64,000 bases of DNA. Source: Eubacteriaceae bacterium (GTDB taxonomy: Bacteria > Bacillota > Clostridia > Eubacteriales > Eubacteriaceae). The stretch covers positions 1 to 64,000 of the forward strand of contig JAFRBB010000056.1 of NCBI GenBank assembly GCA_017405085.1. The letters are read 5' to 3'. Below, one piece after another: positions 24,210 through 50,362 of this stretch (its first letter is position 1; every line of letters begins with the position of its first letter). Made by a program: the position numbers and the translations under genes. The notes beneath the pieces were generated by a model, which worked only from the letters and a program-made list of their open reading frames with translations, was not told the origin of the DNA and did no database searches.

Positions 24210-24340
24210 AAAAAACCCCATGTCGGACATGGGGCGCTTGTTTTCCCCATCATTTCAATTTCTGAAGGTATTGGCACCATACAAACTGCTGGTTGCCGGG
24301 TTTCATCGGGCCTTTCCCTCCGCCACTCTGGATAGGTAAT
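24210..24340 (-). promoter_or_regulatory. SAM-I (S-box) riboswitch with terminator
   Basis: On the minus strand the leader reads TATCCAGAGTGGCGGAGGGA, then GGCCCGATGAAACCCGGCAA, then GGTGCCAATACC, the core of the S-box aptamer (P1 strand, P2 kink-turn, conserved GATGAAACCCGGCAACC and the P3/P4 segments). It is followed by a terminator CCCCATGTC/GACATGGGG plus T6 at 24210-24234. Binding of SAM stops transcription of metK. Confidence 0.95.
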
Positions 24341-44982: not shown

Positions 44983-47634
44983 TTATTTTATATCATACCA
45001 AGATTTCCCGATATGAGCGTCTACAATTAGAGGCACTTTGAGTTCGGCGGCGTTTTCCATTTCCCTGACGAGCAGACCGAGCACTTTTTCTTTGTCGGCG
45101 TCGGATGAATCGATGATGAGCTCATCGTGAACCTGCAGGACAATGCGGGCGTCGAGACGCTCCGCTTTGAGGGCTTGGTCAACGCGAATCATCGCGAGCT
45201 TCATGATGTCCGCCGCCGTGCCCTGAATCGGGGTGTTGAGCGCCATGCGCTCTCCGGATTGGACGAGCATGCGGTTGCGGGATTTGATTTCGGGGATGTC
45301 CCGCCGTCTTCCCCACAATGTGGTCACGTAGCCCTTTTCCTTCGCCAGTTGTTTGATGTTGTCCATATAGGCCGAAACGCCGGGATAGCGTTCAAAGTAT
45401 CTATCGATATAATTTTGGGCTTCACCGCGGCTGATGCCGAGCTCTTTGCCCAGACTGAAGGCCTGTTTGCCGTAGATGAGGCCGAAATTGATGGCTTTGG
45501 CCCGGCTCCGCTGAATCGGCGTCACCTCATCCATCGGCACGGAAAAGATTTCCGACGCGGTCCGGGTGTGAATGTCCTGCTCCTCGATGAAGGCTTCGAT
45601 GAGATTCTCGTCCCCGGAGAGGTGCGCGAGAACCCGAAGCTCCACCTGGGAATAATCGGCGTCGACCAGATAACGATCGGGGCGCTCGGGAATGAATACC
45701 CGGCGGATTTCCCGCCCCAATTCGGTCTTGACCGGGATGTTTTGCAAATTGGGTTCCGAGGAACTGATGCGCCCCGTGGCCGTCACGGTTTGATTAAAAT
45801 GGGAATAAATCTTCTCGGTTCGCGGATCAACGAGTTTGATTAATCCCTGTCCGTAGGTCGAGTCGAGCTTTGACACGGTTCGGTATTCCAAAATTTTGTC
45901 GATGATCGCGTGGTAGGGCCTCAGCTCCTCAAGGACGTCGACGGAGGTGGAATAGCCGGTTTTGGTTTTTTTGATGACGGGCAGGCCCAGCTCCTCAAAG
46001 AGGATCACGCCGAGCTGTTTGGTGGAATTGATGTTGAAGGTTTTGCCCGCGAGGTCATAGATTTCATCGGTGAGGGCGTTGATTTTTTTCTCGAAAAAGG
46101 CCGATAAATCCTTGAGGGCTTCGAGATCGATTTTAAATCCTTCGGATTCCATGTCGGACAAAACGGAAATCAGCGGCGTTTCAATGGTCTCATAGAGTTT
46201 TGTCATGCCGAGTTCGCCGACACGGGCCGGAATATCTTTGGACAGCTTCGCGGTGACGTCGGCGTTTCGGATCATAAACGCTGCCATGTCCCCTTCGCTT
46301 TTTTCCGCGATGGTCACGCGGCTTTTGCCTTTTCCGAAAAATTCTTCGTCATCGTCGATGGTCATGTCCAGATATTTCGCCGCCAGGGTCTTGAGATCAT
46401 AGCGGTTGTCCGACGGCGCGAGGAGATAGGCCGCGACGTAAATGTCATCACCGTAACGGCCGATGGCGCTTTGGTTTTTCCCAAAGAGGTGGGAGAGTTT
46501 TTTTAAGTCGTGGCCGATGATGCTGATGTCGTCGGCATTGGGCAAATCGGCCAGCCGGTGAAGACAGCTTTGGGCAAGGGATGTTTGATTGATATAGTAA
46601 AGACCGCCGCCGAAATCGAGGACAAGGCGCAAATCCGTCCCGTCATCGCAAGTGGTGAGAATCACCTCGCCTTTGTCCCCGATTCGTGTGAGCAGATAGT
46701 TTAATTCCTTATCCCCGTCGACGGTTTGATAGGCCGGCAGTTTCCCCAGCGCCTGATCTCCCGTCTGTCCGGAGGGTTTGTCAAGCTTGTTTAAAATCGC
46801 GCGAAATTCCCATTCTTTGAGAAGCTCAATGGCCTCGTCCGTGAAAATCGTATCGATTTTCAAGTCGTCCAGGCTGATGTCCAACGGAACATGCCGGTCG
46901 ATTTCCCCGAGGAAACGGCTTAAATAGGCATCGTCCTTGCCGGTGACGATTCTTTCTTTTTGTTTACCTTTCAAATCGTCTGTGTGGTCGTACAAGGTGT
47001 CGATATTGTGATAGGCGGCGATGAGCTTGAGCGCCGTTTTTTCGCCGATGCCTTTAATCCCGGGAATATTGTCCGAGGTATCCCCCATTAACGCTTTGAC
47101 CTCAATGAGTTCTTTGGGGGTGACGCCGTATTTGTCGTCGATATAGGCAGGATCCACCACGGTGAATTGATTGCCGCTTCTGGTGGTGGTGTACAAAATG
47201 TGAACGCGCTCGCTGACCAACTGGAAAGAATCTCTGTCGCCGGTGATGATCTCGACGGTCATGTCCCGCTCCTCACCCATTCGGGAGACGGTGCCGATGA
47301 TGTCGTCGGCCTCGTAGCCGCTTTGGGAGAGTACCGAGATGCCCATCCGCTCAAGCAGCTTCTTAATTAAGGGCAGCTGGGTGAGTAAATCCTCGGGCAT
47401 TTTTTCCCGGCCGGCTTTGTACTCATCATATTTTTGATGTCTAAAAGTCGGTTCCGGCAGGTCAAAGGCGACGGCCAGGGCGTCGGGATGATATTGGGTG
47501 TCGATTTTATACAGAATATTCACAAAGCCATAAAGGGCGTTGGTCGGAACGCCTTTGCTGTTTGACATGTCACGGATGCCGTAAAACATGCGAAACAACA
47601 AACTGTTTCCGTCGATAAGCATTAGTTTTTTCAT
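44983..47634 (-). CDS. polA: DNA polymerase I
   Basis: An 883-residue family A polymerase. The N-terminal 5' nuclease (1-300) has LMLIDGNSLLFRMFYG and YEADDIIGTVSRMGEE. The central 3'-5' exonuclease-like domain lacks the DxE metal site (LRLVLDFGGGLYYINQ), so it is probably inactive, as in many Firmicutes. The polymerase has VDADYSQVELRVLAHLSGD, RSRAKAINFGLIYGK and LQVHDELIID. The start at 47634 follows GGAGCGAGTA; the earlier ATG is less well placed. Confidence 0.98.
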   Translation of the reverse strand: MKKLMLIDGNSLLFRMFYGIRDMSNSKGVPTNALYGFVNILYKIDTQYHPDALAVAFDLPEPTFRHQKYDEYKAGREKMPEDLLTQLPLIKKLLERMGISVLSQSGYEADDIIGTVSRMGEERDMTVEIITGDRDSFQLVSERVHILYTTTRSGNQFTVVDPAYIDDKYGVTPKELIEVKALMGDTSDNIPGIKGIGEKTALKLIAAYHNIDTLYDHTDDLKGKQKERIVTGKDDAYLSRFLGEIDRHVPLDISLDDLKIDTIFTDEAIELLKEWEFRAILNKLDKPSGQTGDQALGKLPAYQTVDGDKELNYLLTRIGDKGEVILTTCDDGTDLRLVLDFGGGLYYINQTSLAQSCLHRLADLPNADDISIIGHDLKKLSHLFGKNQSAIGRYGDDIYVAAYLLAPSDNRYDLKTLAAKYLDMTIDDDEEFFGKGKSRVTIAEKSEGDMAAFMIRNADVTAKLSKDIPARVGELGMTKLYETIETPLISVLSDMESEGFKIDLEALKDLSAFFEKKINALTDEIYDLAGKTFNINSTKQLGVILFEELGLPVIKKTKTGYSTSVDVLEELRPYHAIIDKILEYRTVSKLDSTYGQGLIKLVDPRTEKIYSHFNQTVTATGRISSSEPNLQNIPVKTELGREIRRVFIPERPDRYLVDADYSQVELRVLAHLSGDENLIEAFIEEQDIHTRTASEIFSVPMDEVTPIQRSRAKAINFGLIYGKQAFSLGKELGISRGEAQNYIDRYFERYPGVSAYMDNIKQLAKEKGYVTTLWGRRRDIPEIKSRNRMLVQSGERMALNTPIQGTAADIMKLAMIRVDQALKAERLDARIVLQVHDELIIDSSDADKEKVLGLLVREMENAAELKVPLIVDAHIGKSWYDIK

Positions 47635-47789: not shown

Positions 47790-48806
47790 TTAGCCGTCAT
47801 AGCCCATCGGGTTTTTCACTTGAAAGCGATAGCTGTCGACGCACATGGCGTCGATGTCTTTTTCGGCCCGCCATCCGAGGACGGCTTCGGCCTTTGAGGG
47901 ATCGCAATAACATTCGGCGATATCCCCGGCCCGCCTGGGCTTGATGACGTAGGGCAATTTTTTTCCGCAGGCTTTCTCAAAGGCGTGAAGCACTTCAAGC
48001 ACACTGTATCCTTGGCCGGTTCCGAGATTAAAAATGTCCACGCCTTTTTGCTCCGCCAGAACGGACAAGGCCCGCACATGGCCTTTGGCCAAATCCACCA
48101 CATGGATGTAATCCCGGACGCCGGTGCCGTCGGGGGTCGGATAGTCGTCCCCGAACACCGAGAGTTCATCCCGTCTGCCGACGGCCACCTGGGCGATATA
48201 GGGCAACAGATTGTTGGGAATGCCCTTGGGGTCCTCGCCGAGCAAGCCGCTTTCGTGGGCGCCGATGGGATTGAAATATCGAAGTAAAATCACATGCCAA
48301 TCGGGATCCGCCGCCGCGATGTCCGTCAGAATTTGTTCCAGCATGGCTTTTGTCCGGCCGTAGGGATTGGTCACGCGTCCCAACGGACAATCCTCGGTAA
48401 TCGGCACAAAGGCCGGATCGCCGTAGACCGTCGCCGAGGAGCTGAAGACCATGGTTTTGACATCGTGGGCAGCCATCACGCGGCAAAGGGACAAGCACCC
48501 CGAAATGTTGTTATGATAATAAGCCAGGGGTTTCTCGACGGATTCGCCGACGGCTTTGAGTCCCGCGAAATTGATGACGGCATCGATGGGATGATCGTCA
48601 AACACCCGGGAGAGTCCCGCTTCATCCAAAATATCAATGTTGTAAAAGGTCACGGCTTTTCCGGTGATGGCCTCGATCCGTTTGATGGCCGTTTCACTGG
48701 CGTTCACAAGATTGTCGACCACAACGACGTCGTATCCGGCGCCAATCAGTTCGACGCAGGTGTGGCTTCCGATATAACCGGCGCCGCCGGTAACAAGCAC
48801 TGTCAT
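47790..48806 (-). CDS. galE: UDP-glucose 4-epimerase
   Basis: A 338-residue short-chain dehydrogenase-type epimerase that converts UDP-galactose and UDP-glucose. NAD is bound by VTGGAGYIGSHTCVEL; the catalytic triad residues are in VFSSSATVYGD and NPYGRTKAMLEQIL (Tyr-x3-Lys). The sugar-binding TNPYG, LRYFNPIGAHESGLLGEDP and TGVRDYIHVVDLAKGHV segments are complete. GAGGAAAAAACATG starts it. It supplies sugars for glycolipid or wall polymers. Stand-alone gene. Confidence 0.98.
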   Translation of the reverse strand: MTVLVTGGAGYIGSHTCVELIGAGYDVVVVDNLVNASETAIKRIEAITGKAVTFYNIDILDEAGLSRVFDDHPIDAVINFAGLKAVGESVEKPLAYYHNNISGCLSLCRVMAAHDVKTMVFSSSATVYGDPAFVPITEDCPLGRVTNPYGRTKAMLEQILTDIAAADPDWHVILLRYFNPIGAHESGLLGEDPKGIPNNLLPYIAQVAVGRRDELSVFGDDYPTPDGTGVRDYIHVVDLAKGHVRALSVLAEQKGVDIFNLGTGQGYSVLEVLHAFEKACGKKLPYVIKPRRAGDIAECYCDPSKAEAVLGWRAEKDIDAMCVDSYRFQVKNPMGYDG

Positions 48807-49130: not shown

Positions 49131-49541
49131 AAAAAAATAACCACCTTCACGGAACATTGCTCCCGGAAGGTGGTTAGGCCGATACGTCCTCACTTATCAT
49201 TTTTTTGGACTCACCCCTTTCTGCATAGGTTGACCAAATGTTGAAAATCCTTTAACGCTATCGCGAATATATGAATCGATTGTTCCTGTGTTCTGCCCCT
49301 GGGTCTCTATATGCCACAGGTCGCGCCCCAACTTGACAATCGTTATCGCTTTTATGATGAATCTGCTTTGTCGTTCTGATCAGCGGATGCTGTCATACTG
49401 GAATACATTTGTAAACCTCAAAAGAACGAATGAAGTAATTTGTCAAATCACTTTTCCGACTCACCCGAGCCGTCCAACAGAAGTGCGATACACGTTAATT
49501 GATTTTCCCAACAGCTTGACTGAACTGTTTGCTTTGGTTTG
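49131..49541 (-). ncRNA. Unassigned ~410-nt transcript with promoter and terminator
   Basis: A near-consensus promoter at 49547-49574 and a strong terminator (AACCACCTT/AAGGTGGTT stem at 49139-49175, then ATTTTTTTA) define a minus-strand transcript with no supported gene inside. It has several local hairpins: CGGCTC-GGGT-GAGTCG within CACTT/AAGTG, a long-range CGTTCT/AGAACG pairing, and CCTGTG...CACAGG. It lacks the signatures of RNase P RNA, tmRNA, SRP RNA, 6S RNA, T-box and common riboswitches. It is most likely a structured non-coding RNA. Confidence 0.65.
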
Positions 49542-49546
49542 ACTCT

Positions 49547-49574
49547 ATTATATCACCTTTCGCGGGAATGTAAA
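49547..49574 (-). promoter_or_regulatory. Promoter of the ~410-nt RNA
   Basis: TTTACA (49569-49574), a 16-base spacer and TATAAT (49547-49552) on the minus strand. Confidence 0.8.
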
Positions 49575-49690: not shown

Positions 49691-50362
49691 CTACTTCTCC
49701 GCCAGCACCAATTCGTGACGATGAACCCGCCACAGCGCTTCCCGGTCGAAGGCGATCCCGCTCTCTTTTTCGAAAGAGGCGATGAGCGCCGAGGGCGAGA
49801 CGGTTTTTTGATCGATGTAGCGCATCGTCATCTCGAAGGCCGCGACCCCGTCAGTCAAGGAATCAAGGGAAAATTCCCGGAGATAGGGCTTGATGTCCAT
49901 GGTAACGAGTTTTTTCTTTTTGTTCCGTTTTTCGGTCAGTATTTCGTCCAGCTTCATGTAAGCGCCGATGGCTTGCCGAAGGGCCGTCTCGTCGGCGTCG
50001 GTTTCGGTCCGCACGGTATAGGCGGCGGAGACGATGGCGGCATTTAGGGCTCGGGGTTTTTCGTGATGCATGGCCGCGAAGGTGACGCGGTAGCCCTCGG
50101 GCAATTCGCGGTTTAAAGCCCGGATGAAGGCTTCGGGCGCGACGTCCTCGGTCAATTCCACATCCCCGTATTCCCCGCTTGATGTCATGCCGACGGCCAT
50201 GGCCTGGGCAAAGGCCAGCTTGGGATGCGGGTTGAAGCCCGCCGAATAGGCCATCGGGACCGCTGCCCGGCGAAAGGCCCGTTGAAACATTTTTTGTTGA
50301 TCGAGGTGGGAAACGTATTTGAGCGCCTCACCTCGGGAAAATTTAAAACGCATGAGATTCAT
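49691..50362 (-). CDS. TIGR03936-family radical SAM-associated protein (DUF2344)
   Basis: A 223-residue protein that starts with MRFKFSRGEALKYVSHLDQQKMFQRAFRRA and has MAYSAGFNPHPKLAFAQAMAVG, both markers of DUF2344. In many Firmicutes it is fused to, or follows, the TIGR03960 radical SAM protein, as it does here with a 580-base repeat-filled gap between them. The pair is usually found before RNase E/G and ribosomal protein L21 genes; its reaction is unknown. AAAGGG precedes the ATG. Confidence 0.92.
   Translation of the reverse strand: MNLMRFKFSRGEALKYVSHLDQQKMFQRAFRRAAVPMAYSAGFNPHPKLAFAQAMAVGMTSSGEYGDVELTEDVAPEAFIRALNRELPEGYRVTFAAMHHEKPRALNAAIVSAAYTVRTETDADETALRQAIGAYMKLDEILTEKRNKKKKLVTMDIKPYLREFSLDSLTDGVAAFEMTMRYIDQKTVSPSALIASFEKESGIAFDREALWRVHRHELVLAEK

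Follow-up and report, generated by a model that had tools for sequence, protein, structure and literature searches.

A multi-copy family of long structured RNAs in Eubacteriaceae with a very strong Shine-Dalgarno sequence and a putative minigene at the terminator

Introduction

What is encoded between two protein-coding genes of a Eubacteriaceae bacterium, where a stretch of about 410 nt is bracketed by promoter and terminator signals? The window analysed here comprises 64,000 nucleotides (positions 1 to 64,000 of contig JAFRBB010000056.1, assembly GCA_017405085.1). The interval in question lies between a TIGR03936/DUF2344-type protein gene (49,691-50,362, minus strand) and galE (47,790-48,806, minus strand), the latter with its own promoter-like site at 48,869-48,841. 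The labels TIGR03936 and galE were taken from the initial annotation, which had described the interval as a folded RNA with no plausible gene, either a divergent 6S-type RNA or a new large non-coding RNA. We examined the boundaries of the gene, its fold, its relatives and its coding potential.

Results

The interval contains an RNA gene with its own promoter and terminator

Both strands of the interval were read, and the RNA gene was placed on the minus strand at about 49,541-49,131; all its features given below lie on that strand. The predicted RNA of about 410 nt (49,131-49,543) starts at about 49,543-49,540 and ends in a T run. Its promoter (49,547-49,574) consists of a -35 element TTTACA (49,574-49,569), a 16-nt spacer, and an extended -10 element TGaTATAAT with the -10 hexamer at 49,552-49,547, so that 11 of the 12 σ70 consensus positions are matched and a TG precedes the -10 element. 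A promoter scan of the region by itself was not above chance (2 found versus 1.6 expected). Promoters of the same type were found upstream of homologues: nearly all copies with enough upstream sequence carried TTTACa-N16/17-TGnTATAAT followed by an AUCAA-type 5' end. The intrinsic terminator (49,131-49,176) is formed by a hairpin at about 49,176-49,138 and a T run at 49,138-49,131. A simple terminator scanner missed it, probably owing to a bulge in the hairpin; hairpin and T run were kept in homologues with compensatory changes. The RNA gene proposed in the initial annotation is therefore real with respect to both of its ends. That it is strongly expressed, as was also proposed, may be expected solely from the consensus of its promoter and of the Shine-Dalgarno (SD) sequence described below.

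The RNA body is folded and closed by a conserved helix

The fold calculated for 417 nt of the window RNA had a free energy of -123.8 kcal/mol (z = -3.45), and none of 100 shuffled sequences was as good, in agreement with the earlier proposal of a folded RNA. For the domain upstream of the SD on its own, z was -2.0 in the window copy and -3.6 in L071, its homologue from the same genus; when 14 copies were compared, the upstream domains had z values between -0.9 and -7.4, with ten below -2.7. Minimum-energy folds calculated independently for the window RNA and L071 agreed in most helices. When 123 pairs of the window fold were checked in L071, 99 were unchanged, 13 half-changed, 2 compensatory and 9 broken.

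In this fold the closing helix, P1, is made by the 5' end of the RNA and a segment that shortly precedes the SD (5' strand ACCAAA, 49,533-49,538; 3' strand UUUGGU, 49,233-49,238, about 11 nt before the SD). P1 was examined over 23 copies with strands chosen by position, that is, by distance from the promoter and from the AUG. Cognate duplexes had a mean energy of -14.0 kcal/mol versus -9.5 kcal/mol for non-cognate ones, and 0 of 20,000 permutations were as good. Examples are AUCAAAG/CUUUGAU (L073), UCAAUAAAUC/GAUUUAUUGA (L160), AUCAAC/GUUGAU (L161) and GCCAAAU/AUUUGGU (L071). The window copy was not distinctive in this comparison, its P1 alone having just 6 bp, and P1 is assigned there from the fold and from L071. 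A second helix, P2, extends the closing helix (5' strand GAAAAUC..UUAACGU.AUCGC, 49,485-49,507; 3' strand GCGAUAGCGUUAA..GAUUUUC, 49,243-49,264). The same helix was present in the L071 fold; between the two sequences, one of its pairs had changed in a compensatory manner (U-G to A-U) and two were broken.

A third element, the hairpin CCUG-UG-GCAUAUAGAGAC-C-CAGG (49,298-49,320), was found in five genera and occurred twice in L088. Its stem showed compensatory changes at 4 of 4 pairs, with 100% of cells paired. The loop letters GCAUAUAGAGAC served to find the copies, and loop invariance is thus partly due to selection, which was not applied to the stem. A covariance model of the hairpin (R2) found no match outside these RNAs when run over the order, and the hairpin was not found in Acetobacterium, whose RNA bodies differ.

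The RNA belongs to no Rfam family

Neither the window copy nor nine homologous loci matched an Rfam 15 family at gathering score, and the matches obtained at permissive settings were chance noise from eukaryotic snoRNA and miRNA models. The interval was without match to the models of 6S RNA (RF00013), tmRNA (RF00023) and RNase P RNA (RF00010), and no tRNA-like domain with a tag ORF fitting the tmRNA model was found. The true genes were located elsewhere in the genome: 6S RNA at G000:C64:14718-14897 (79 bits), tmRNA on G000:C7, and RNase P RNA at G000:C1:80417-80759 (277 bits). Because 6S RNA is separately present here and in 37 of the 40 family genomes, the 6S-type reading is refuted. A SAM riboswitch (RF00162, 68.9 bits) was observed elsewhere in the window, at 24,244-24,338 on the minus strand. 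A phage or plasmid origin was rejected: blastn gave no match, and a motif search of viral contigs gave none either. No description of these RNAs was found in the open-licence literature, which is weak evidence of novelty.

The RNA occurs in multiple copies across Eubacteriaceae

A DNA search of 40 family genomes yielded one homologue from the same genus (G037, loci L009/L071; 85% identity over 490 nt); in other genera the match was limited to a short segment around GAAAGGGGTGAGTCC. This exact 15-mer was present in 20 of the 67 genomes of the order, all of this family, with 34 exact copies versus 0 for the reversed control. Scanning a genome collection for the motif followed by ATG returned 25 stretches, nearly all from Acetobacterium, Eubacterium barkeri/aggregans or Eubacteriaceae MAGs. 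A covariance model built on the 3' module (R1) found further, more divergent copies, with 4-10 per genome in most Acetobacterium, 3-4 in the genus of G023-G027, and 1 strong match in the genus of the window. Strong matches (E below 1e-8) were obtained in about 30 of the 40 family genomes, spanning 7 genera. Copies in G018 lie on the minus strand at 2379702-2379812, 2713157-2713270, 2715470-2715579 and 538913-539021, and copies in G024 on the plus strand at 3746190-3746314, 3752872-3752991 and 46311-46426. Outside the family, no convincing copy emerged from the 391 class genomes searched with the model; the best match (E 2e-7) was without SD and mini-ORF. As judged from these comparisons, the RNAs form a real and undescribed family of long structured RNAs within Eubacteriaceae.

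Several copies depart from the common form. In E. barkeri and E. aggregans (L073 and L074), two tandem copies about 357 nt apart each have their own promoter, and the second differs in its body and in its peptide (MVIEQHC). A subtype at a separate locus (L170, L150, L174, L178) has a short body of about 170-220 nt, the spacer GAGACCACC, and the peptide MQTEPKN or MQTQTEK. Some Acetobacterium bodies (L027/L070, L028, L019/L084) contain internal direct repeats upstream of the SD, e.g. CCTGGATTTAGAAAAAC-like units, which suggests growth of the body by duplication. At L176:7064-7175 and L177:5139-5245, the module of SD, mini-ORF (MTMEKRS, MTIGKQN) and terminator directly follows a protein-coding gene, without structured RNA, as if the module could be attached to an mRNA. 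An outlier from an uncultured Clostridia MAG (L077:7403-7510) has the exact SD motif, an AUG and the 5-codon ORF MQHEQ; a conserved P1 or recognisable closing helix was not evident there.

The RNA is a free-standing gene

In most of the 7 genera one copy follows a TIGR03936/DUF2344-type gene, recognised between loci by sequence similarity. This arrangement was found in the window, Acetobacterium, the genus of G023-G027, L088 and L161, and probably also exists in L160. This position is likely the ancestral locus, for which the gene serves as a syntenic marker. In L088 and L160, the RNA at this locus is followed by a convergent gene that was labelled argH-like by eye from the sequence. Among distinct copies, the downstream gene was co-directional in 52 of 71 cases and convergent in 19 of 71, and it differed between loci. 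A cis-acting galE leader was rejected, since the same RNA stands at other loci before unrelated or convergent genes. Because the downstream genes differ and are partly convergent, the RNA is, by genomic context, predicted to be a free-standing gene.

The conserved motif is an exceptionally strong Shine-Dalgarno sequence

Immediately before the terminator, a feature was found that the initial annotation had overlooked: a conserved SD followed by a mini-ORF. In the window the SD is GAAAGGGGUGAGUCC (49,207-49,221), which is predicted to form about 15 bp with the 16S rRNA 3' end (-21.6 kcal/mol). The 16S tail used, GCUGGAUCACCUCCUUUCU, is that of four relatives, as it was not found in the draft assembly of the window genome. 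Over 76 distinct copies the predicted pairing had a median of -19.5 kcal/mol and extended over at most about 15 nt at the 16S 3' end. Ordinary start sites, taken from 203 long ORFs at the same loci, gave -9.8 kcal/mol, and 1.5% of them were as strong as the module SDs. The SD-to-AUG spacing was 5-7 nt in 72 of the 76 copies.

The invariance of GAAAGGGGTGAGTCC in the first alignment was partly due to selection, since the copies had been found with that motif. In divergent paralogues, GAAAGGGGTGAGTCC was swapped for other SDs (AATAGGAGGAGTCC, AGAAGGAGTCC, AAAAGGAGGACG), indicating that SD function was kept rather than sequence. The invariant-looking motif is thus best read as an SD of exceptional predicted strength. 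Very strong SDs can slow start-codon clearance, and efficient translation is therefore not certain. Extended SD pairing is used by ribosomes of S. aureus (PMC13009471).

A conserved mini-ORF ends within the terminator stem

The initial annotation had described the interval as having no plausible gene, whereas an 8-codon frame, ATG ATA AGT GAG GAC GTA TCG GCC TAA (MISEDVSA; 49,174-49,200, stop at 49,176-49,174), follows the SD in the window. At the same position, the frame after the SD-linked AUG was open for 5-10 codons in 76 of 76 distinct copies and for exactly seven in 70 of them, while the two alternative frames closed at once in most copies. Peptide types include MTTEIVS, MTSEIES, MLTESER and MQTEPKN. 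Of 50 distinct 7-codon ORFs, 44 had GAG or GAA (Glu) as codon 4; the base entropies at its three positions, 0.14, 0.47 and 1.11 bits, look like those of a selected Glu codon. Codons 2, 3, 5 and 6 were variable at all three positions, and the peptide varied much outside Glu4. In L154/L155 one extra codon was present (MTTEEILD) and the frame was preserved. All three stop codons (UAA, UAG and UGA) occur, in stems of unrelated sequence; in 74 of 75 copies, including the window copy, the stop lay in the foot of the terminator stem. Conservation of an RNA motif and conservation of coding appear not to be fully separated by these data. We infer that the mini-ORF is translated. Of the earlier proposal of a new large non-coding RNA, the large structured RNA stands, being found in 7 genera with covarying helices, conserved promoter and terminator and no Rfam match, but because of the SD and mini-ORF the notion of a purely non-coding RNA is probably wrong.

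Discussion

We consider it probable that these loci encode a free-standing structured RNA on which ribosomes dock and translate a minigene. In this proposed mechanism, the RNA would be transcribed from its own promoter, and a helix between its 5' end and the sequence immediately preceding the SD would close a multi-branched body. The SD, single-stranded and just 3' of the closing helix, would pair with most of the 16S rRNA 3' tail and capture the 30S subunit. The ribosome would then initiate at the AUG 5-7 nt past the SD and read the mini-ORF, which has 5-10 codons and in most copies seven, before terminating at a stop buried in the terminator hairpin. The terminator stem starts at about +20 relative to the AUG in seven-codon copies and at about +25 in the 8-codon window copy. 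Since a tripeptide uORF of Bacillus gave a 30S toeprint at +16 (PMC9226507), an initiating ribosome would just fit between closing helix and terminator. The gene boundaries, the fold, the strength and spacing of the SD, the conserved open frame and the stop position of this model are each shown by comparison between copies. More speculative is its purpose, which may be for the RNA to retain ribosomes, acting as a tether or a sink, rather than to make a peptide or merely protect the RNA. It is possible, and we propose it tentatively, that these are a new class of multi-copy structured ribosome-capture RNAs with a minigene of about seven codons, regulating ribosome availability or tethering the body to the ribosome.

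The same module can be read in other ways. The 30S subunit might be recruited mainly as a shield against nucleases, with the body doing the work (e.g. by base-pairing in trans or protein binding) and the mini-ORF merely freeing the ribosome. Such a role has precedents in the strong non-initiating SD of B. thuringiensis cry3A, where bound 30S subunits stop RNase J1 (PMC4113751), and in the reported ability of a strong SD before a minigene to stabilise a transcript independently of the peptide (PMC8708949), and it would suit an RNA whose 5' end is tied into a helix. We regard it as rather unlikely, for a stabiliser needs neither an AUG at fixed spacing, nor an open frame, nor a fixed stop, all three of which are conserved here, and known stabilising SDs sit at 5' ends. 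If the product were instead the peptide of about seven residues (M-T-T-E-I-x-S/N/D), with the long structured 5' part controlling its translation, then the conserved Glu4 with free wobble, the codon-sized insertion and the very strong SD would be accounted for. The 76 copies encode at least 41 different peptides, however, with little conserved beyond Met1 and Glu4, and neither an export signal, a processing partner nor a dedicated neighbour gene was seen at the examined loci, which makes a micropeptide gene improbable in our judgement.

A short uORF before a terminator is also typical of ribosome-mediated attenuators such as the vmlR leader (PMC9226507), in which the minigene would be a leader peptide and a stalled ribosome would open the terminator and allow read-through into the downstream gene. 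Ribosomes near a terminator are known to repress it (PMC4824070), and most downstream genes here are co-directional. Attenuation is nevertheless very unlikely because the transcript lacks a consistent downstream gene: those genes differ between copies and include convergent ones, the ancestral copies of L088 and L160 being examples, a separate promoter-like site was found for galE in the window, and a conserved antiterminator was not seen. There is very little chance that the RNA is an ordinary base-pairing regulator, whose seed would be the G-rich single-stranded 3' segment and whose likeness to an SD would be incidental. A conserved single-stranded segment beside the terminator is typical of sRNAs, but paralogues switch between SD variants and yet keep the spacing to the AUG and the open frame.

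If ribosomes dock on these RNAs as the docking model predicts, this would add a new mode of contact between RNAs and the translation machinery. The family is absent from Rfam 15 and reaches up to ten copies in acetogens of biotechnological use (Acetobacterium, E. limosum), and it is directly testable with the published dRNA-seq and Ribo-seq of A. woodii (PMC8407422) and E. limosum (PMC6260860).

To our knowledge, this architecture, which combines a hyper-strong SD with an ORF of usually seven codons whose stop is embedded in the terminator, is not known from any described RNA class. The RNA appears to resemble in part translational minigenes, stabilising SDs, attenuation leaders and dual-function RNAs, and the full definition of any of these could not be shown. 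6S RNA, tmRNA and RNase P RNA are likewise structured RNA genes in a similar size class, with housekeeping roles, but match the window RNA in neither sequence nor architecture. RNAIII of S. aureus, a dual-function RNA, is likewise long and folded, is transcribed from its own promoter to its own terminator, and contains a small ORF preceded by an SD. These features are shared, and the structured RNA gene with its own promoter and terminator is found here on sequence evidence. In contrast to RNAIII, the ORF here has 5-10 codons, lies at the extreme 3' end and has its stop in the terminator, and several to ten paralogues occur per genome. We know of no sequence relation between RNAIII and these RNAs.

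The vmlR attenuation leader (PMC9226507) also has a tiny ORF with a strong SD and then an intrinsic terminator, and in the present RNAs, too, a short ORF with an SD was found directly before an intrinsic terminator. The transcripts described here are predicted to be free-standing, however, with 160-690 nt of mostly structured RNA between the promoter-proximal 5' end and the SD, and a conserved co-directional regulated gene was not found downstream of the copies, where the genes are variable and often convergent. The stabilising SD of cry3A (PMC4113751) resembles the present one in being strongly complementary to the 16S tail and in lying in a segment that is otherwise non-coding, whereas here the SD lies at the 3' end and is followed by a conserved AUG, an open frame and a stop. 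Translational minigenes (PMC8708949) share a very short ORF after a strong SD, which in the RNAs described here is part of a long, conserved folded RNA and is fused with the terminator.
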